Below are positions 47,915 to 57,060 of a stretch of DNA of 64,000 bases, piece after piece. Position numbers and translations under genes: made by a program. The stretch comes from an uncultured Clostridia bacterium (GTDB lineage: Bacteria > Bacillota > Clostridia > Oscillospirales > Acutalibacteraceae): NCBI GenBank assembly GCA_927362715.1, contig CAKMIX010000011.1:1-64000 (forward strand). The letters are read 5' to 3'. Position 1 is the first letter of the stretch; each line of letters opens with the position of its first letter. The notes below the pieces were generated by a model, which did not search any database, was not told where the DNA came from, and saw nothing but the letters and a program-made list of their open reading frames with translations.

Positions 47915-48150
47915 AGTACAGATCGCAGAGGTCAGACGTCAGATGTGGAATAATAGGGTTCTGCACAAAGCCGAAATCCGCACAACCCCGTAGGGACAGC
48001 CCTTGCGGCTGTCCGCGCGTCCGGAATTCAGCAATCAGAAATCAGAAATCAGAAATCAGAAGTCAGAAACTGTATAGACAAATTCGCACAAAGTATAAAT
48101 CTGTAGGACAAGGGGACGGTTCTGTGTCTCAAAGAACACAGAGCCGTCCT
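47915..48150. repeat. Composite intergenic repeat region
   Basis: No gene is seen here. A hairpin GGACAGCC/GGCTGTCC (47994-48001 and 48007-48014) is followed by five 7-bp units, mostly AATCAGA (48033-48067). Then comes the large inverted repeat at 48114-48149. Such modules recur in many gut clostridial genomes as I recall, and the combination looks like stacked small repeats or a MITE remnant. Confidence 0.6.
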
Positions 48151-48158
48151 TCCTTTTT
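48114..48158 (+). terminator. Terminator after mgtE within repeat
   Basis: GGACGGTTCTGTGT (48114-48127) pairs with 48136-48149 (one G-T wobble), then TTCCTTTTT. The sequence resembles a repeated intergenic element but can act as a terminator. Confidence 0.7.
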
Positions 48159-48221: not shown

Positions 48222-48239
48222 CTGTTAAAAAATTGTCAA
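48222..48239. promoter_or_regulatory. Weaker Rex-box-like site
   Basis: CTGTTAA-AAAA-TTGTCAA matches the Rex consensus TTGTTAA-N4-TTAACAA at 11 of 14 fixed positions. It starts 27 bp before the stronger site at 48249. Confidence 0.5.
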
Positions 48240-48248
48240 GGGAAACAG

Positions 48249-48266
48249 ATGTTAAAATATTAACAA
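48249..48266. promoter_or_regulatory. Rex operator
   Basis: ATGTTAA-AATA-TTAACAA matches the Rex consensus at 13 of 14 fixed positions and is symmetrical (TGTTAA/TTAACA). It lies just upstream of the rex -35, fitting autoregulation. Confidence 0.85.
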
Positions 48267-48273
48267 ATTCCCA

Positions 48274-48302
48274 TTGACAAGCGGGATTTCTTGCGCTATC
48301 AT
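48274..48302 (+). promoter_or_regulatory. Promoter for the rex-adhE-hydrogenase operon
   Basis: TTGACA (48274-48279), 17 bp, TATCAT (48297-48302), about 40 bp before the rex start and 8 bp downstream of the Rex operator. Confidence 0.85.
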
Positions 48303-48341
48303 GAAACCAATACAAGAATACTGATTGGGGCGATAGGGCTT

Positions 48342-48992
48342 ATGTGCAGCGCGCAAACGGGCGTTCGGAGCATCTCCAAACAAACGCTTCTGCGGCTTCC
48401 CATGTATCTCGATTACCTCAAACGTCTGCAAGGCGAAGAGGCGGCGCACATTTCCGCGCCGAAGATCGCCGCAGCCTTGGGGCTTAATGAGGTGCAGGTG
48501 CGCAAAGACATCGCCGCCGTCAGTTCTTGTGCGGGCAAGCCGAAAACCGGCTTTGAGACTGCCCGGCTCATCCGGGATATCGAAGCCTTCCTCGGCTACG
48601 ACAGCGTCAACGAAGCGGTGCTCGTGGGCGCAGGCAAGCTCGGCCGCGCGCTGCTCGGCTATGAGGGCTTTGCGCAGTTCGGCATCCGCCTGGTTGCGGC
48701 ATTCGACCGCAATGCCGACGCGGCGGCGATGTACGGCAAGGACGCGCCGATGATCCTCCCCATGGAAAAGCTCACCGACCTTTGCCGGCGTATGGGCATC
48801 CATATCGGGATCATCACCGTTCCCGCCGAAAGCGCGCAGGAGGTCTGCGATCTGCTCGTGTCCGGCGGGGTGCGCGCGATCTGGAACTTCGCGCCGACGC
48901 ATCTGCATGTCCCCGAAGGGGTGCTTTTGCAAAACGAGAATATCGCCTCGTCTCTCGCGGTGCTGTCCGCCCATCTAAAGCAGTCCATGTAA
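48342..48992 (+). CDS. rex: Redox-sensing transcriptional repressor Rex
   Basis: A 216-residue NAD(H)-responsive repressor; NADH binding releases it from DNA. The N-terminal winged helix (about 9-75) contains the typical SKQTLLRLPMYLDYL and GLNEVQVRKDIAAV. The Rossmann domain begins with VGAGKLGRAL (95-104). A C-terminal swap helix completes the fold. ATG 48342 is preferred; an in-frame start at 48291 lies inside the promoter. Start-site RBS is weak (ATAGGG). Rex boxes upstream indicate that it represses itself and the downstream adhE-hydrogenase genes. Confidence 0.94.
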   Translation: MCSAQTGVRSISKQTLLRLPMYLDYLKRLQGEEAAHISAPKIAAALGLNEVQVRKDIAAVSSCAGKPKTGFETARLIRDIEAFLGYDSVNEAVLVGAGKLGRALLGYEGFAQFGIRLVAAFDRNADAAAMYGKDAPMILPMEKLTDLCRRMGIHIGIITVPAESAQEVCDLLVSGGVRAIWNFAPTHLHVPEGVLLQNENIASSLAVLSAHLKQSM

Positions 48993-49018
48993 TCACGACG
49001 ATAAAGGAGTACGGTACA

Positions 49019-51628
49019 ATGGAAAAGACCAAGACTTACGAGATCGTGGATTCGGTTGAGAAGCTTGAACAGGCGCTCAAACGGGTCCGCAAGGCGCAGG
49101 AGACCTTTGCGACCTATACCCAGGAGCAGGTGGATAAGATCTTCCGCGCCGCCGCCATCGCTGCGAATAAGCAGCGCATTCCGCTCGCCAAAATGGCGGT
49201 GGAAGAAACCGGCATGGGCGTTGTGGAAGATAAGGTCATCAAGAACCACTACGCCGCCGAATATATCTATAACGCCTATAAAAACACGAAAACCTGCGGC
49301 GTTGTAGAGGAGGATCCCGCGTTCGGCATCAAGCGTGTCGCCGAGCCCATCGGTGTTATCGCAGCGGTCATCCCGACCACGAACCCCACCTCGACTGCGA
49401 TCTTTAAGACGCTCATTTCTTTAAAGACCCGCAACGGCATTATCATCAGCCCCCACCCGCGCGCGAAGAAATCCACCATTGCTGCGGCAAAGGTCGTGCT
49501 CGAAGCCGCTGTAGAGGCGGGCGCGCCTGAGGACATCATCGGCTGGATCGACATCCCGTCTCTGGAGATGACCACGCTTCTGATGAAAGAGGCGGACATC
49601 ATCCTTGCTACGGGCGGCCCCGGCATGGTCAAATCCGCATACTCCTCCGGCAAACCGGCGCTCGGCGTCGGCGCGGGCAATACGCCGGCGATCATCGACG
49701 ACACCGCCGACATCCTGCTTGCCGTCAACTCCATCATCCACTCCAAGACCTTCGACAACGGCATGATCTGCGCTTCCGAGCAGTCGGTCATCGTGCTCGA
49801 CAAGGTCTATAAGAAGGTCAAGGACGAATTCACCGCGCGCGGCTGCTATTTCCTCAAGAAAGCGGAGATCGAAAAGGTCCGCAAGACCATCATCATCAAC
49901 GGCGCGCTCAATGCGAAGATCGTCGGCCAGCCCGCGCACAAGATCGCAGAGCTTGCGGGCGTGAGCGTCCCCGAGACCACAAAGATCCTCATCGGCGAGG
50001 TCGAGAGTGTGGATATCTCCGAGGAATTCGCACACGAAAAGCTGTCTCCCGTGCTTGCCATGTATAAGGCGAAGGATTTCGACGAAGCCATGGATAAGGC
50101 GGAGCACCTCATCGCGGACGGCGGCTACGGCCATACCTCCTCCGTGTACCTCAACGCCGTGACTGAGCAGGATAAGCTCGCACGCTTCGGCGAGCGCATG
50201 AAGACCTGCCGCATCCTTGTCAATACGCCTTCCTCACAGGGCGGCATCGGCGACCTTTACAACTTCAAGCTTGCACCCTCTCTGACGCTTGGCTGCGGCT
50301 CCTGGGGCGGCAACTCGGTTTCCGAGAACGTCGGCGTCAAGCATCTGTTGAATATCAAAACCGTTGCAGAGAGAAGGGAAAATATGCTGTGGTTCCGCGC
50401 GCCCGAAAAGGTGTACTTCAAAAAGGGCTGCCTGCCCGTTGCGCTTGACGAGCTCAAAAATGTGCTCGGCAAGAAAAAGGCATTCATTGTTACGGACTCC
50501 TTCCTGTATAATAACGGCTACACCAAACCGATCGAAGACAAGCTCGACGAAATGGGCATCCGCCACACCTGCTTCTACGAAGTCGCGCCCGACCCGACGC
50601 TCCAGTGCGCCGAAAAGGGTACCGACCAGATGCGGCAGTTCGAGCCGGATACCATCATCGCCATCGGCGGCGGCTCGGCTATGGACGCCGCGAAGATCAT
50701 GTGGGTGATGTATGAGCATCCGGACGTGGACTTCTCCGACATGGCAATGGACTTCATGGATATCCGCAAGCGTGTCTATACCTTCCCGAAGATGGGCGAA
50801 AAGGCGTATTTCATCGCGATCCCGACTTCGGCCGGTACGGGCTCCGAGGTCACGCCGTTTGCGATCATCACCGACGCCGAGACCGGCGTGAAGTGGCCGC
50901 TTGCAGACTATCAGCTGATGCCGAATATGGCGATCGTGGACGCAGACCTGATGATGAGCGCGCCGAAGGGCTTGACCGCGGCTTCCGGTATCGACGCCGT
51001 AACGCATGCGCTTGAAGCGTATGCCTCCGTTATGGCGACCGATTATACCGACGGCCTTGCGATCCGCGCGCTGCAAATGATCTTCCGGTATCTGCCGCGC
51101 GCTTACGATAACGGACAAAACGACCCTGTTGCGCGTGAAAAGATGGGCAACGCCGCCACTATGGCAGGTATGGCGTTCGCAAATGCATTCCTTGGCGTCT
51201 GCCACTCGATGGCGCACAAGCTCGGTGCGTTCCACCACCTGCCGCACGGCATCGCAAACGCGCTGCTGATCGACAACGTCCTGCGCTACAACGCGGCGGA
51301 AGTTCCCACCAAGATGGGCACTTTCCCGCAGTATGACCACCCGCATACGCTTGCGCGTTATGCAGAGGTCGCCGACGCGCTGGGTGTGCAGGGCAAGACG
51401 GACGAAGAAAAGCTCGAAGGTCTTATCGCTAAGATCGACGCCCTGAAAGAACACTGCGGCGTGAAAAAGACGATCCGCGACTACGGCGTGGATGAGAAAT
51501 ACTTCCTTGACACCCTCGACGAAATGGTCGAGCAGGCGTTCAACGACCAGTGCACCGGCGCGAACCCGCGCTATCCGCTGATGAGCGAGATCAAAGAGAT
51601 GTATCTCAAGGCATATTACGGCGAATAA
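49019..51628 (+). CDS. adhE: Bifunctional acetaldehyde/alcohol dehydrogenase AdhE
   Basis: An 869-residue two-domain enzyme that reduces acetyl-CoA to ethanol with 2 NADH. The N-terminal aldehyde dehydrogenase has catalytic Cys251 in NGMICASEQS and the GVGAGNTP loop. The C-terminal iron-dependent alcohol dehydrogenase has GGGSAMDAAK and the metal-binding His region HSMAHKLGAFHHLPHG near 728-743. AAAGGAG at 49003-49009 is 9 nt from ATG 49019. It is the second gene of the Rex operon, a classical Rex target. Confidence 0.96.
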   Translation: MEKTKTYEIVDSVEKLEQALKRVRKAQETFATYTQEQVDKIFRAAAIAANKQRIPLAKMAVEETGMGVVEDKVIKNHYAAEYIYNAYKNTKTCGVVEEDPAFGIKRVAEPIGVIAAVIPTTNPTSTAIFKTLISLKTRNGIIISPHPRAKKSTIAAAKVVLEAAVEAGAPEDIIGWIDIPSLEMTTLLMKEADIILATGGPGMVKSAYSSGKPALGVGAGNTPAIIDDTADILLAVNSIIHSKTFDNGMICASEQSVIVLDKVYKKVKDEFTARGCYFLKKAEIEKVRKTIIINGALNAKIVGQPAHKIAELAGVSVPETTKILIGEVESVDISEEFAHEKLSPVLAMYKAKDFDEAMDKAEHLIADGGYGHTSSVYLNAVTEQDKLARFGERMKTCRILVNTPSSQGGIGDLYNFKLAPSLTLGCGSWGGNSVSENVGVKHLLNIKTVAERRENMLWFRAPEKVYFKKGCLPVALDELKNVLGKKKAFIVTDSFLYNNGYTKPIEDKLDEMGIRHTCFYEVAPDPTLQCAEKGTDQMRQFEPDTIIAIGGGSAMDAAKIMWVMYEHPDVDFSDMAMDFMDIRKRVYTFPKMGEKAYFIAIPTSAGTGSEVTPFAIITDAETGVKWPLADYQLMPNMAIVDADLMMSAPKGLTAASGIDAVTHALEAYASVMATDYTDGLAIRALQMIFRYLPRAYDNGQNDPVAREKMGNAATMAGMAFANAFLGVCHSMAHKLGAFHHLPHGIANALLIDNVLRYNAAEVPTKMGTFPQYDHPHTLARYAEVADALGVQGKTDEEKLEGLIAKIDALKEHCGVKKTIRDYGVDEKYFLDTLDEMVEQAFNDQCTGANPRYPLMSEIKEMYLKAYYGE

Positions 51629-51640
51629 GGAGGAGCATAT

Positions 51641-52390
51641 ATGAAACTCGAAAAGGTCATTGCGGTCCGTACCGCGAAAACCGTTTATCGTGACGGCAAC
51701 CGTGCCGTCAAAGTGTTCGACGAGGACTACAAAAAGTCCGATATCCTCAATGAAGCACTCAATCAGGCGCGCGCCGAGGAAACGGGTCTGCCCGTGCCGA
51801 AGCTGCTGGAAGTCGGCGTTGTAGACGGCAAATGGGCGATCGCGTCCGAATACATCGAGGGCAAGACCCTCGGTCAGCTCATGGACGAACATCCGGAAAA
51901 GGTCGATGAATATCTGGAGCTGTTCGTGGACATCCAGCTGCGCATCCACAACCAGAAAGCGCCGCTGCTCAATAAGCTCAAGGATAAGATGAACCGCAAG
52001 ATCAACGAGACCGATCTCGACGCGACCACGCGCTATGAGCTGCATACGCGCTTGGAGGGCATGCCTAAGCACAATAAGGTCTGCCACGGCGATTTCCGCC
52101 CGAGCAACGTCATCGTCGGAGATGACGGCGTCAACTATATCATTGACTGGGCGCATGTCACACAGGGCAACGCCTCTGCGGACGCGGCGCGCACCTATTT
52201 GGTCTTCTATTTGAAGGGCGAGACGGAGTTGGCGGAAAAGTATCTTAATCTGTTCTGCAAAAAGAGCGATACGGCAAAGCAGTATGTCCAGAAATGGCTG
52301 CCGATCGTCGCCGCCTCCCAAAGCGTCAAGCGTAACCCGGAGGAAAAAGAGCTGCTTATGAAGTGGCTGGACGTTGTGGACTACGAATAA
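51641..52390 (+). CDS. APH-fold small-molecule or protein kinase
   Basis: A 249-residue aminoglycoside phosphotransferase/choline kinase-fold protein. The catalytic loop CHGDFRPSN (148-156) has the Asp base D151, and the metal-binding Asp is D169 in IIDWAH. The N-terminal Lys-Glu pair is plausible (K24; E70 region). Antibiotic resistance is unlikely given its position, 12 nt after adhE and upstream of Fe-S genes. The substrate is unknown; it may phosphorylate a metabolite or a partner in this operon (inference). AGGAGGAG gives a strong RBS. Confidence 0.8.
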   Translation: MKLEKVIAVRTAKTVYRDGNRAVKVFDEDYKKSDILNEALNQARAEETGLPVPKLLEVGVVDGKWAIASEYIEGKTLGQLMDEHPEKVDEYLELFVDIQLRIHNQKAPLLNKLKDKMNRKINETDLDATTRYELHTRLEGMPKHNKVCHGDFRPSNVIVGDDGVNYIIDWAHVTQGNASADAARTYLVFYLKGETELAEKYLNLFCKKSDTAKQYVQKWLPIVAASQSVKRNPEEKELLMKWLDVVDYE

Positions 52391-52423
52391 GCGTCCGCAG
52401 CACTGTATAAAGGAGAATCAGCG

Positions 52424-52663
52424 ATGAAAGTGACTGTCTGTATCGGAAGCTCCTGCCATCTGAAGGGCTCGCGCGCCGTGGTCGAGCGGCTGCAGCAGCT
52501 TGTGGCGGAGAACGACCTCAAAGACCGTGTGGAGCTCAGCGGGAAATTCTGCATGGGCAACTGCCGCAACGGCGTTTCCGTGACCGTGGATGACGAGCTG
52601 TTCTCGGTTTCTCCCGAAACGGTCGATGATTTCTTCAAGCAGAACGTGCTTGCGAAGCTGTAA
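52424..52663 (+). CDS. Thioredoxin-like [2Fe-2S] ferredoxin (NuoE/HydC type)
   Basis: A 79-residue stand-alone thioredoxin-fold [2Fe-2S] protein. The four Cys follow the NuoE-type pattern: C6-x4-C11 and C43-x3-C47 (CIGSSC, CMGNC). Such subunits pass electrons in NADH-linked [FeFe] hydrogenases and hydrogenase regulators. AAAGGAG precedes ATG 52424. It lies just before the sensory-type hydrogenase gene and probably supplies its electrons or senses redox state. Confidence 0.88.
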   Translation: MKVTVCIGSSCHLKGSRAVVERLQQLVAENDLKDRVELSGKFCMGNCRNGVSVTVDDELFSVSPETVDDFFKQNVLAKL

Positions 52664-52704
52664 CAAAATAACAGAACACTTGCAGACGGAATCGGGGGAT
52701 CGAT

Positions 52705-54393
52705 ATGTCCAACTATATCAACCTGAAAAAGTCCAACTGCAAAAACTGCTACAAATGTATCCGCAACTGCCCGGTGAAATCCATCAGCTTTTCGGGTTCG
52801 CAGGCGCAGATCATCGAGGACGAATGCGTCCTTTGCGGAATGTGCTTTGTCGCCTGCCCGCAGAACGCCAAGGAAATTCGCAATGATTTATCATCTGCGA
52901 AGGCGCTGCTCGCGGGCGACGCGCCCGTATATGTAAGTCTGGCGCCCTCGTTTGCCGCAAACTACGAGGGCGTCGGCATTGCGGGTATGCGCAAAGCGCT
53001 CATGCAGCTTGGATTTGCCGATGCGCAGGAGACTGCCGTCGGCGCGACCATGGTGAAAAACGAATATGACCGCATGGCAGACGAGGGGACGCAGGACGTC
53101 ATCATCGCCACTTGCTGCCATACGGTCAATTTGCTCATACAAAAGCATTTTACCGAGGCGCTTCCCTGTCTTGCCAAGGTGCAGTCGCCCATGCAGGCGC
53201 ACTGCTCGCTTCTCAAAAAAGAGCATCCGGGCGCCAAGACACTCTTTATCGGGCCGTGTATCTCTAAAAAAGCGGAGGGGGAGGACTATCCCGGCATCGC
53301 GGACTGCGTGCTCACGTTTGAGGAACTCGACGAGTGGTTCGCCGAAGCGGGGATCACGCCTGAGCCAGTCCCGGAGGACGATGAGCCTGCGGGCAAGGCA
53401 CGCTTTTTCCCGACGGCGGGCGGCATCCTCAAATCCATGCGCTGCGACAGCCCAAAATACAGCTACCTTGCAGTGGACGGTATGTCGGCGTGTATCAACG
53501 CGATCCAGGACGTCATCAACGGGAACGTACACAACTGCTTTATCGAAATGTCCGCGTGCCCCGGAAGCTGCATCGGGGGGCCAACTATGCGCCGGTCGCA
53601 CCGTGCGCCTGTGCAGGGTTACCTTGCGGTGGAGAAATATGCTAAAAAAGCAGAAGGTGCGGATTTTCCCGTCGAACAGCCCGAGAGCGCGGAGCTTGCG
53701 AAAAACCTGATCTATCTCAAAAAAGAAAAACCGCGCGCGGGCAGCCGCGCTATTGAGGAGATCTTGCGCAAAATGGGCAAGGTGCGCCCTGAGGATGAGC
53801 TCAACTGCGGTTCGTGCGGCTACAACACCTGCCGTGAAAAGGCGCAGGCAGTGCTCGACGGCAAGGCGGAGCTTTCCATGTGCCTGCCGTTCCTTAAAGA
53901 AAAGGCGGAGACCTTCTCCGATACCATCATTCAGAATACGCCCAACGGCATTTTGATCCTCAACGAGGATATGGAAGTGCAGCAGATCAACGCCGCCGCA
54001 CGGCAGATCCTCAATATCCGCAATCAGAACGATGTTCTCGGCGAGCCGGTCGTGCGCATTCTCGAACCGTTTGATTTCATCGAAGTCCTTTCGGGCGGGG
54101 TGGGCATCCACGACAAGCGCGTCTATCTTGCGGAGTACGACAAATACGTTGAGGAGACCATCATTTACGACCGCCTGTACCACATCCTTATGTGCATCAT
54201 GCGCGACATCACGGAGGAGGAAAAGGAAAAGGCGAAAAAAGAGGAGATCAGCCGCCATACCATCGAGGTCACGGATAAGGTGATCGAAAAGCAGATGCGT
54301 ATCGTGCAGGAGATCGCCTCGCTCTTAGGCGAGACCACGGCGGAAACCAAAATTGCTCTGACCAATCTGAAGGAGTCTCTCAAAGATGAATGA
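52705..54393 (+). CDS. PAS-containing sensory-type (group C-like) [FeFe] hydrogenase
   Basis: A 562-residue protein. Two [4Fe-4S] ferredoxin motifs (C12, C15, C18, C22; C41, C44, C47, C51) precede the H-cluster domain. H-cluster loops are L1 ATCCHT (C137, C138), L2 GPCISKKAE (C185, K188, E191) and L3 EMSACPGSC (C285, C289). All cluster Cys are kept, but the two Met positions flanking the site in catalytic enzymes appear as G183 and S283, as I recall for the sensory hydrogenase of Thermotoga maritima. A further Cys4 FeS domain (C368, C371, C376, C393) and a PAS domain (~400-500) follow. Next to a SpoIIE phosphatase, it resembles HfsB or phosphatase-linked group C. It probably senses H2 or redox state instead of producing H2. 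Confidence 0.85.
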   Translation: MSNYINLKKSNCKNCYKCIRNCPVKSISFSGSQAQIIEDECVLCGMCFVACPQNAKEIRNDLSSAKALLAGDAPVYVSLAPSFAANYEGVGIAGMRKALMQLGFADAQETAVGATMVKNEYDRMADEGTQDVIIATCCHTVNLLIQKHFTEALPCLAKVQSPMQAHCSLLKKEHPGAKTLFIGPCISKKAEGEDYPGIADCVLTFEELDEWFAEAGITPEPVPEDDEPAGKARFFPTAGGILKSMRCDSPKYSYLAVDGMSACINAIQDVINGNVHNCFIEMSACPGSCIGGPTMRRSHRAPVQGYLAVEKYAKKAEGADFPVEQPESAELAKNLIYLKKEKPRAGSRAIEEILRKMGKVRPEDELNCGSCGYNTCREKAQAVLDGKAELSMCLPFLKEKAETFSDTIIQNTPNGILILNEDMEVQQINAAARQILNIRNQNDVLGEPVVRILEPFDFIEVLSGGVGIHDKRVYLAEYDKYVEETIIYDRLYHILMCIMRDITEEEKEKAKKEEISRHTIEVTDKVIEKQMRIVQEIASLLGETTAETKIALTNLKESLKDE

Positions 54394-55558
54394 CCTTTGT
54401 ACCGACATCGGCTTTATGAGCGTCAACAAATTCGGCGAGCAGCTCTGCGGGGACCATGTGGAGGTCATCGACCAAAGCGACGACAGCCATGTGGTGGTTT
54501 TGGCAGACGGTCTCGGCAGCGGGGTGAAAGCGAGCATTTTGTCTACGCTGACCTCGACGATCATTTCCACCATGGTTGCCAACGGCATGAGCCTTGAATC
54601 ATGTGTCGATACCATCGCCGCCACCTTGCCCATCTGCGAAGTGCGAAAAGTTGCATATTCTACATTTACCATCGTCAGAACTATTGACAACCGCGAGGCA
54701 GAAATTATACAATATGATAACCCGAAGCTCATATTGCTGCGCGACGGCAAAAGCTTTGACTATCCCCAGACCGAGACGAAGATTGACGGCAAGACGGTTT
54801 ATAAAACAAAAATCGATCTGCACGAAAACGATTTTCTGGTATTTACCAGCGACGGCGCGATCTGGGCAGGCGTCGGCACAACGATGAACTTCGGCTGGCA
54901 GCGCGAGGAGATTGTAGAATTCCTTGAAAAAATGGTTCGTCCGGATTTCACCGCAAAGACTGTTTCGTCTCTGCTTCTGGACGAGTGCTGCCGATTGTAC
55001 GGCGGAAAACCGGGGGATGACACCACCGTTTGCACCGTCAAGATCCGTCGGCGCAAATCCGTCAATCTGCTGTTCGGGCCGCCGCGCGACCCCAAGGATG
55101 TCAATAAGATGATGACCCTGTTCTTTGCAAAAGAGGGCAAGCACATCGTCAGCGGCGGAACGACCTCCACGCTTGCGGGGGAATTCTTAGGCAAGCCTGT
55201 GGAAACGCAGCTCGACTACCTCGACCCCGACATCCCGCCCATCGCGAAGATCGAGGGCGTCGATCTGGTCACCGAGGGCGTCATCACCATGAGCCGCGTG
55301 CTGGAATATGCCAACAGCTACGGCGAGGCGGACAGCATTTATGCGGATTGGAGCGTCAAGGAGGACGGCGCTTCGCGTATAGCGCGGCTGCTTTTGGAAG
55401 AGGCGACCGATGTCAATTTCTTCGTCGGTACGGCGGTCAACCCCGCGCATCAGAATCCCGACCTTCCGATCAACTTCAACATCAAAATGCATTTGGTGGA
55501 AGAGCTTTCCGAGCGGCTGAAATCGCTTGGCAAGCGCGTGAAGGTCAGCTATTTTTAG
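54386..55558 (+). CDS. SpoIIE/PP2C-type protein phosphatase
   Basis: A 390-residue protein. The first ~220 residues form a SpoIIE/PP2C Ser/Thr phosphatase with metal Asps at D41 (VLADGLGSG) and D211-D212 (KPGDDTTV). The C-terminal ~165 residues form a second domain without an obvious family. No membrane helix is present. Its start lies 8 bases inside the sensory hydrogenase gene, so the two are translationally coupled and likely form a signalling pair. The target phosphoprotein is not identified. Confidence 0.88.
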   Translation: MNDLCTDIGFMSVNKFGEQLCGDHVEVIDQSDDSHVVVLADGLGSGVKASILSTLTSTIISTMVANGMSLESCVDTIAATLPICEVRKVAYSTFTIVRTIDNREAEIIQYDNPKLILLRDGKSFDYPQTETKIDGKTVYKTKIDLHENDFLVFTSDGAIWAGVGTTMNFGWQREEIVEFLEKMVRPDFTAKTVSSLLLDECCRLYGGKPGDDTTVCTVKIRRRKSVNLLFGPPRDPKDVNKMMTLFFAKEGKHIVSGGTTSTLAGEFLGKPVETQLDYLDPDIPPIAKIEGVDLVTEGVITMSRVLEYANSYGEADSIYADWSVKEDGASRIARLLLEEATDVNFFVGTAVNPAHQNPDLPINFNIKMHLVEELSERLKSLGKRVKVSYF

Positions 55559-55571
55559 AGGAGAAACCGGA

Positions 55572-57020
55572 ATGGGAAAAGAAGGACGCAAATTCGATAC
55601 CAAGGTGCAGTACCTGAAATACAAGGTGCTGCGTGAGGTGGCGCGCATTGCTTTTGACGGCGACGAATTCCAGCTCGCCAACAGCTTCAACGATATTGCA
55701 AAGGTCGTGGCGCCCGGTCCGAAAGCCACCATGCGCTGCTGTGTTTACAAAGAGCGCGCCGTCATTGCCGAGCGTATCAAAATGGCATGCGGCGGGGATA
55801 AGACCAACCCCAATGTCATTGAGGTCATTGAGATCGCCTGCGACGAATGCCCCGCCAGCGGCTATCAGGTCTCGCAGGACTGCCGCGGCTGCATTGCGCA
55901 CCGCTGTGAGGATGTCTGCCCGAAAGACGCGATCACCTTTGACGAGAACCAGAAGGCGCATATCGACAAAACCAAGTGCGTCAACTGCGGCGCATGCGCC
56001 AAGGTCTGCCCGTATTCGGCGATCACCAATTATGTTCGCCCGTGTGAGCGCGCCTGTAAGGTCAAGGCGATCTCCATGAAAAACGACGAGATGCGCGCCG
56101 CACACATTGACAACGATAAGTGCATTTCCTGCGGCGCGTGCGAATATATGTGCCCGTTCGGCGCGATTGCCGATAAATCCTATATTCTGGATGTTATCAG
56201 CATGCTTAAAAAGAGCCAAAACAATACGGCATATAAGACCTATGCCATCGTCGCGCCCTCTATCGCGAGCCAATTTACCTATGCCAAGCTCGGGCAGGTC
56301 ATTGCCGCGATCAAAAAGCTCGGCTTTTACAGCGTCATCGAAGCGGCGCTCGGCGCGGATATGGTGTCCTATACCGAAGCGCAGGAGCTTGCGGAAAAGG
56401 GCTTTTTAACAAGCTCGTGCTGTCCTGCGTTCGTAGATTATATCCGCAAGAGCTTCCCGAAGCTCGCGGACAACATCTCCCATAACCTTTCGCCCATGGC
56501 GACGATCGCAAAATATATCCGCGATCGTGAGCCGGACTGCAAGATCGTCTTTATCGGGCCCTGCACGGCGAAGAAGATGGAGATCCAGCTCGATCGCGTC
56601 AAGCCCATCGTAGATTCCGTTTTGACCTTCGAGGAATTGCAGGCGCTGTTTGACAGCCGCGACATCGACTTTTCCGCACTGCCCGAGGAGGCGCTCGACA
56701 ATGCTTCGTATTTCGGACGTATTTTCGCGCGCAGCGGCGGACTTCGCGACGCGGTGGAGCAGGCGCTGAAAGAGCAGAATATTGACTTTGACTATAAGCC
56801 GATCGCCTGCGACGGCATTGAGGAATGCCGTCTGGCGCTTCTTAAAGCGTCGAAAGGCGTGCTCCCGAACAACTTTATCGAGGGTATGGCGTGCGTCGGC
56901 GGGTGTATCGGCGGCGCAGGCTGCTTAACGCATGAAGCGCGCGACAAGAATGAGGTCGACAAATACGGCCGCGAGGCAATGGAAAAAACCATCACCGACG
57001 CCATCAGCGTGCTCAAATAA
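55572..57020 (+). CDS. [FeFe] hydrogenase, group B-like
   Basis: A 482-residue hydrogenase. [4Fe-4S] motifs lie at C104-C116, C136-C146, C158/C162 and C184-C194. H-cluster loops are L1 TSSCCPAF (C283, C284), L2 GPCTAKKME (C331, K334, E337) and L3 GMACVGGC (M439, C441, C445). The proton-relay Cys283, Lys334, Glu337 and Met439 are kept, so it should be catalytically competent if maturases HydE/F/G exist elsewhere. It resembles HfsD-type group B enzymes that take electrons from ferredoxin. It is the last operon gene and is followed by a strong terminator. Confidence 0.9.
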   Translation: MGKEGRKFDTKVQYLKYKVLREVARIAFDGDEFQLANSFNDIAKVVAPGPKATMRCCVYKERAVIAERIKMACGGDKTNPNVIEVIEIACDECPASGYQVSQDCRGCIAHRCEDVCPKDAITFDENQKAHIDKTKCVNCGACAKVCPYSAITNYVRPCERACKVKAISMKNDEMRAAHIDNDKCISCGACEYMCPFGAIADKSYILDVISMLKKSQNNTAYKTYAIVAPSIASQFTYAKLGQVIAAIKKLGFYSVIEAALGADMVSYTEAQELAEKGFLTSSCCPAFVDYIRKSFPKLADNISHNLSPMATIAKYIRDREPDCKIVFIGPCTAKKMEIQLDRVKPIVDSVLTFEELQALFDSRDIDFSALPEEALDNASYFGRIFARSGGLRDAVEQALKEQNIDFDYKPIACDGIEECRLALLKASKGVLPNNFIEGMACVGGCIGGAGCLTHEARDKNEVDKYGREAMEKTITDAISVLK

Positions 57021-57029
57021 TGATTTTGC

Positions 57030-57060
57030 AAAGGCGGCGGGAAATCCTGCCGCCTTTTTT
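57030..57060 (+). terminator. Terminator of the rex-hydrogenase operon
   Basis: AAAGGCGGC (57030-57038) pairs with 57049-57057 with additional inner pairing, ending in TTTTTT. Confidence 0.9.

Follow-up and report, generated by a model that had tools for sequence, protein, structure and literature searches.

The choice between ethanol and hydrogen in fermenting gut and rumen bacteria is usually attributed to Rex and to thermodynamics. A gene cluster of Ruminococcus albus containing hydS, for a sensory hydrogenase, and hydA2, for a monomeric one, was reportedly first described by Zheng in 2014 (J Bacteriol). According to the accessible parts of two papers, this eight-gene cluster falls 111-fold in co-culture with a hydrogen consumer (PMC6776011), and HydA2 and HydS belong to one unit, the HydA2 transcript being 90-fold lower (PMC10838669). 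Here we describe an operon of the same kind in a 64,000-nucleotide stretch of DNA (hereafter the window) from an uncultured Clostridia bacterium of the family Acutalibacteraceae (GCA_927362715.1, contig CAKMIX010000011.1, positions 1 to 64,000 of the forward strand). The first-pass annotation of the window had presented the union of rex and adhE in one hydrogen-sensing unit as new. This does not hold, because plasmid pRUMAL01 of R. albus 7 has the same gene order, published, in the portions of the literature available, as a regulated unit; the operon itself is of the R. albus hydS/hydA2 type, and its link between Rex, AdhE and hydrogen sensing is not new. Attention therefore falls on its leading gene, which appears to encode a second, divergent Rex protein (Rex2) that may read an operator of its own.

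Two rex genes are present in this genome, an ordinary one on another contig (C23; best model NF003990) and that of the operon (48342..48992, plus strand, ATG start), for which NCBIfam NF003994 is the best model, with 262.7 bits for the protein scanned from a TTG start and a curated cut-off of 130. That TTG start, at 48291, was rejected as the true one because it precedes the -10 box of the promoter. The operon's Rex has an N-terminal DNA-binding domain and a CoA-binding/Rossmann domain, and it matches a solved Rex structure (3wg9, E 2.7e-31). Identities to it are bimodal, lying at 46-58% (Rex2) or at no more than 35% (ordinary Rex) in the 27 genomes, of 35, that have a match; in a survey of the whole order, Rex2 matches at E <= 1e-40 reach down to 44% identity. 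A tree of 55 Rex proteins, rooted at its midpoint with no outgroup, splits 36 Rex2 from 19 ordinary Rex proteins with support of 100/100. The stretch after the recognition helix, which we take to be the DNA-contacting wing, typically reads RKDLAxVSxxGKPKxGY in Rex2 versus RQDLNCFGGFGQQGYGY in ordinary Rex, and where 3wg9 and the ordinary Rex rows have an FGxFGxxGxGY-like stretch, the window's Rex departs from it with VSSCAGKPKTGF. By these sequence criteria, the operon's Rex is a divergent paralogue of a lineage separate from the genome's ordinary Rex.

The promoter of the operon (48274..48302, plus strand) has a -35 box TTGACA, a spacer of 17 nt and a -10 box TATCAT, agreeing with the consensus at 11 of 12 positions; the pattern scan gave 10 promoter-like sites, compared with 6.4 in shuffles. 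Ahead of it, 75 nt before rex, lies a classical Rex operator, ATGTTAAAATATTAACAA (48249..48266, plus strand), one mismatch away from TTGTTAAN4TTAACAA. At this threshold, such operators occur at 4 places in the whole genome. Promoter and operator are both kept in three relatives (L038, L039 and L040), with one -10 base altered in L040. Directly after the -10 box, and thus overlapping the expected transcription start, lies a second dyad, ATCRRTA-N6-TAYYGAT (48306..48325, plus strand; one mismatch), a score reached by one of 200 shuffles, which we propose as the Rex2 operator. A further Rex-operator-like site with three mismatches (48222..48239, plus strand) had been put forward as a second Rex site. 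Its core is kept in two of the three close relatives (L038 and L039, not L040), but by itself it means little, since the window has three matches to the classical operator at three or fewer mismatches where 1.26 are expected, and as many turn up in 12 of 100 shuffles.

The second dyad was first noticed in rex-led loci and afterwards counted at no more than one mismatch. The loci came from two sources: 80 named loci, the best 80 of 564 or more confirmed HydS relatives in a scan of genome contigs, and 295 surveyed genomes of the order, from which 60 regions around the strongest HydS matches were fetched (60 of 63 by hand count, with G077, G123 and G266 left out; one was already present as L016). 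L037 (37% identity) was excluded. Dropping 14 of 143 loci with near-identical HydS left 129 distinct loci, the window included, and 19 of these were removed because of a contig end or a cut first gene, leaving 110 with readable upstream DNA. Three of the 74 counted as not rex-led (L180, L208 and L212) have a rex gene farther upstream within the locus.

The box ATCRRTA-N6/7-TAYYGAT lies upstream of 32 of the 36 HydS operons led by rex2 and of 7 of the 74 others. The association persists among loci fetched after the motif had been defined (10 of 12 rex2-led, 7 of 33 others), and shuffling the rex2-led upstream stretches yields the box in 3 of 1440 cases. The classical operator, at two or fewer mismatches, behaves differently: it is found at 9 of 36 rex2-led operons and 27 of 74 other HydS operons (15 of 20 among the adhE-led ones), and being no commoner in rex2-led operons it was rejected as a discriminating feature. 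These counts bear on the alternative in which the operon's own Rex binds classical sites at 48222-48266, as assumed by the first-pass annotation, and the second dyad is unrelated. A classical operator is indeed present there, with its single mismatch and 75 nt before rex, and a quarter of the rex2-led operons (the same 9 of 36) have one. Nevertheless, it is the second dyad and not the classical site that is commoner before rex2-led operons, and Rex2 is altered after the recognition helix; we thus consider a single Rex logic unlikely. The evidence favours two Rex proteins and two operators. Because the classical operator fronts so many HydS operons that are not rex-led, it probably answers to ordinary Rex.

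If the box belongs to Rex2, genomes with a box-bearing hydS operon lacking a leading rex should encode Rex2 elsewhere, and 6 of 7 do; in G096, Rex2 leads a second hydS operon. In the control, 8 of 28 genomes chosen for a box-less hydS operon that is not rex-led carry Rex2, and in 5 of these 8 the rex2 gene itself has the box. The genomes of L180, L208 and L212 (G227, G061 and G141), which stand outside the 28, also carry Rex2 and would bring the control to 11 of 31. Within 250 nt upstream and at one mismatch or fewer, the box is found at 23 of 34 rex2 genes and at none of 18 ordinary rex genes; for rex2 genes away from hydS loci, the hand count is 12 of 21, the remaining rex2 promoters overlapping the operon count.

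Genome-wide scans were made with the N6 form, the N7 form being sought in the stretches fetched upstream of operons and rex genes. An exact N6 box is present in 30 of the 59 Rex2-bearing genomes, compared with 33 of the 236 that have no Rex2 (Fisher p ~1e-8, a statistic that ignores relatedness). Sites outnumber those of the reversed pattern by 53 to 1 in Rex2 genomes and by 36 to 11 in Rex2-free ones. Among the 53, we opened and hand-sorted 33 from other Rex2 genomes: 16 lie upstream of named targets (rex2 7, iron alcohol dehydrogenases 5, adhE 3, a bifurcating hydrogenase 1), 10 lie inside open reading frames (ORFs) and 7 have no assigned target. Box and rex2 recur together across several families of the order. 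Base counts from 28 N6 boxes, set in the Rex frame, give approximately TCGATAA-N4-TTATCGA, which has the same 18-bp dyad layout as TTGTTAA-N4-TTAACAA and differs at two of seven half-site positions; at the inner ends of the two halves, A on the left and T on the right are weakly kept. Outside the order, Pelolinea submarina (Chloroflexota; L043) has the box together with a complete operon led by rex2, at 59-79% protein identity, an occurrence that suggests horizontal transfer.

In the genome of the window, the N6 box occurs once exactly and three times with one mismatch, while the reversed pattern is absent. The sole exact box fronts an operon for a bifurcating hydrogenase (L142 1932-6908, contig C5); the one-mismatch boxes are that of the operon described here and two with an ORF overlap, which in one case involves the first codons. 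The bifurcating operon encodes a NuoE-like protein, an ATPase-domain-like ORF, a [2Fe-2S] protein, HydB and HydA, the last two named by sequence resemblance and an [FeFe] match. The 187-aa ORF between the NuoE-like and [2Fe-2S] genes resembles, by eye, a histidine-kinase-type ATPase domain and is perhaps an additional hydrogenase-linked signalling element. According to a 2012 survey, as far as its accessible text goes, the gene for a sensory hydrogenase usually lies upstream of those for a bifurcating one, and often a kinase gene separates them (PMC3561251).

Taken together, these observations give a somewhat better than even chance that a second Rex lineage with a rewired operator, TCGATAA-N4-TTATCGA in place of TTGTTAA-N4-TTAACAA, acts beside ordinary Rex as a dedicated hydrogen and alcohol switch and so divides the redox regulon. 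Such a switch would act on its own gene, on the HydS-AdhE-HydA2 operon, on stand-alone alcohol dehydrogenases and on the bifurcating hydrogenase. Rex2 with its own box is a probable novelty that we did not find in print: no Rex paralogue with another operator is named in the titles and abstract openings of the open literature, a search that did not cover the main survey of Rex regulons (Ravcheev 2012), and the novelty is unproven for that reason.

Several observations weigh against this interpretation. Of the order's 89 exact N6 boxes, as many as 36 come from genomes that have no Rex2 match, and given this background the N6 pattern alone is not specific; G002, for example, has no Rex2 match and carries an exact N6 box before an iron alcohol dehydrogenase gene. 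G099, which is 88% complete, has the box and no Rex match of any kind. Conversely, 8 of the 28 control genomes have Rex2 despite a box-less hydS operon, 11 of 34 rex2 genes lack the box at one mismatch or fewer, and the window's own box has a mismatch. At the bifurcating-hydrogenase operon, the box stands some 45 nt ahead of the likely -10, an atypical place for a repressor site. Since Rex is thought to activate from such an upstream place in Caldicellulosiruptor (PMC8579813, in the text available), the sign of regulation at that operon could be either. Many HydS operons lack rex, adhE or the kinase, the last being absent from 48 of 110 HydS runs, so a HydS operon need not have the full set. 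Finally, the available text of PMC5707799 reports for Thermoanaerobacterium saccharolyticum that rex expression was higher where ethanol was higher, the reverse of what simple repression predicts, and that the activity of NADH-linked alcohol dehydrogenase (ADH) changed without a change in that of NADH-linked aldehyde dehydrogenase (ALDH).

Some of these points would suit another regulator that often travels with rex2 and reads the second dyad, for example a hydrogen-responsive factor under kinase and phosphatase control. Boxes stand before genes for hydrogenases and alcohol dehydrogenases and are also present in genomes without a Rex2 match, the phosphatase and kinase need a target, and the pairing of Rex2 with the box is a prediction from sequence. 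A foreign regulator fits poorly, however, with boxes before rex2 genes distant from hydS and with the Rex-like 18-bp dyad in which two of seven half-site positions are changed, and we regard it as rather improbable. Similarly doubtful is the view that the locus is simply an ordinary published hydS/hydA2 operon with the box as a lineage-specific promoter feature: the gene order is that of R. albus, and shared ancestry could co-inherit box and rex2, our counts being corrected for relatedness only by dropping near-copies, but the box accompanies rex2 even at sites away from hydS, and the association spans several families of the order as well as Pelolinea.

The operon to which Rex2 is linked consists of seven plus-strand genes in one packed run, with a Rex operator at its promoter and a terminator hairpin on either side. 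Upstream, after mgtE, the pattern scan found a strong terminator-like hairpin of 16 pairs with a T-rich tail (48112..48151, plus strand). Downstream, an intrinsic terminator-like hairpin of 12 pairs followed by a T run (57030..57057, plus strand) ends the operon; it was not listed by the window pattern scan that found the upstream one, but its z score is -4.14 and none of 200 shuffles is as stable. After rex2 come, all on the plus strand, adhE for a bifunctional acetaldehyde/alcohol dehydrogenase (49019..51628; NF010378, 1416 bits), an APH-fold kinase gene (51641..52390; PF01636), a gene for a 79-aa thioredoxin-like [2Fe-2S] protein of the NuoE C-terminal type (52424..52663; PF01257), hydS (52705..54393; PF02906, PF04060, PF00989), a SpoIIE-type PP2C phosphatase gene (54386..55558; PF07228) and a gene for a HydA2-like monomeric [FeFe] hydrogenase (55572..57020; TIGR04105, 563 bits, cut-off 450). 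The intergenic distances, in gene order, are 26, 12, 33, 41, -8 (an overlap) and 13 nt. The first-pass description of seven genes with tiny gaps or overlaps, running from a Rex-type promoter to a terminator, is thereby confirmed, as are the gene identities that it gave, and we infer that the seven genes form one transcript in this genome. A promoter-like match inside the phosphatase gene (54684-54713; 11/12) is kept in three aligned relatives; because the surrounding coding stretch is 94% identical anyway, its conservation is explained by coding constraint and does not decide the matter, and the match was rejected as a sign of an operon break.

Four [FeFe]-hydrogenase matches exist in this genome, two of them in this operon. 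HydS combines an H-cluster domain and a PAS domain in one chain (PF02906, PF00989/PF13188), as in sensory group C [FeFe] hydrogenases; its best NCBIfam match, TIGR04105, reaches 174 bits, below the cut-off of 450. Its Fe-S cysteines are kept, and its C-terminal tail, IASLLGETxAETKxAL, is strongly conserved, the columns IASLLGET and AETK each being conserved in 97% or more of the 128 rows, among which the window appears twice. The aspartates of the phosphatase, invariant across aligned relatives, are presumably those expected of PP2C. Its structural model has a pLDDT of 86.3 and, in a fold search, is matched best by SpoIIE-type PP2C domains, over about 225 columns (50 rows listed). The C-terminal part (about 160 aa, residues ~230-390) has many invariant residues without a Pfam match, and from the model we take it to lie outside these best fold matches. 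In the kinase, the HGDF..SN and DW motifs, which we take to be catalytic, are kept among relatives. A relay from the HydS tail to a phosphatase opposing the kinase would be the natural reading, in which every phosphorylation step is predicted. In the accessible part of PMC5707799, HydS is proposed to signal via its PAS domain to an adjacent Ser/Thr kinase.

The complete order is found in 23 of 110 loci, contigs that end downstream being counted as they are, and rex leads 36 of the 110 HydS runs. The phosphatase is in 107 runs, the [2Fe-2S] gene in 102, hydA2 in 84, the kinase in 62 and adhE in 46; from these counts, the phosphatase is judged a near-constant partner of hydS, with rex, adhE and the kinase as optional additions. 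The hydS and phosphatase genes overlap in 74 of 80 adjacent pairs.

From this evidence, we think it likely that the window holds an R. albus-like, single-unit operon gated by two NADH-sensing Rex repressors, with HydS acting through the phosphatase and kinase. Ordinary Rex would occupy the classical operator at 48249-48266 and Rex2 the second dyad over the transcription start; with each protein reading its own site, two NADH sensors would gate the operon. As hydrogen builds up and NADH rises, both repressors would release, and the cell would make AdhE, with ethanol serving as electron sink, together with HydA2 and the HydS system. Rex2 would regulate its own expression as well and, acting at the same box, that of the electron-bifurcating hydrogenase operon. 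HydS may sense hydrogen or the redox state with its H-cluster domain and relay the signal to the co-translated phosphatase by way of the PAS domain and the conserved tail; the phosphatase would oppose the APH-fold kinase, and AdhE, Rex2 and HydS itself are candidate targets. Which protein binds which box, and with what sign, is deduced here from motif and gene associations. It is plausible, as the first-pass annotation had argued, that the NADH level sets the amount of a hydrogen-sensing system.

If this is correct, the existence of a second Rex and a matching operator would account for how hydrogenase and alcohol genes can be switched jointly and independently of the remaining Rex regulon, and one of two NADH sensors with separate DNA codes would be encoded inside a hydrogen-sensing operon. 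The box motif would allow the Rex2 regulon to be sought in genomes. Moreover, the hydrogen-sensing role proposed for HydS becomes open to test, since each of the two proposed control sites at the promoter can be mutated without the other.

The closest known system is the cluster on R. albus 7 plasmid pRUMAL01 (NC_014824.1, ~139.0-147.9 kb), found by tblastn of plasmids, in which rex, adhE, a phosphotransferase gene, [2Fe-2S], hydS, a SpoIIE phosphatase gene and hydA2 follow one another as in the window, with identities in operon order of 48, 78, 68, 63, 58, 62 and 70%. It too has the second dyad, without mismatch and in the N7 form. The R. albus cluster differs in being plasmid-borne, in having two [2Fe-2S] genes instead of one, and in its best match to the classical operator within 300 nt before rex, which has five mismatches compared with one in the window. 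NCBIfam puts the window's HydA2 in B1, although it is 70% identical to the R. albus enzyme that PMC6776011, in the text available, places in group A1. Large plasmid-listed records carry the hydS cluster in two species, R. albus (pRUMAL01, L035) and Monoglobus (L036); that of R. albus is complete, and that of Monoglobus lacks rex, adhE and the kinase.

Another known system is hfsABCD of Thermoanaerobacterium, which, in the accessible descriptions, keeps together the PAS hydrogenase HfsB, the serine phosphatase HfsC and the hydrogenase HfsD (PMC11837493, PMC5707799). The window has this B-C-D adjacency when its domains are set against those published descriptions. The 79-aa [2Fe-2S] protein precedes its HydS, at the place that HfsA would take before HfsB. 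In Thermoanaerobacterium, known to us by description (PMC5707799, in part), adhE (beside Tsac_0415) and rex lie apart from the four-gene hfs operon. Compared with the Rex family at large, the window's Rex shares the domains and the fold and differs in its lineage, in the stretch after the recognition helix and, putatively, in its operator.

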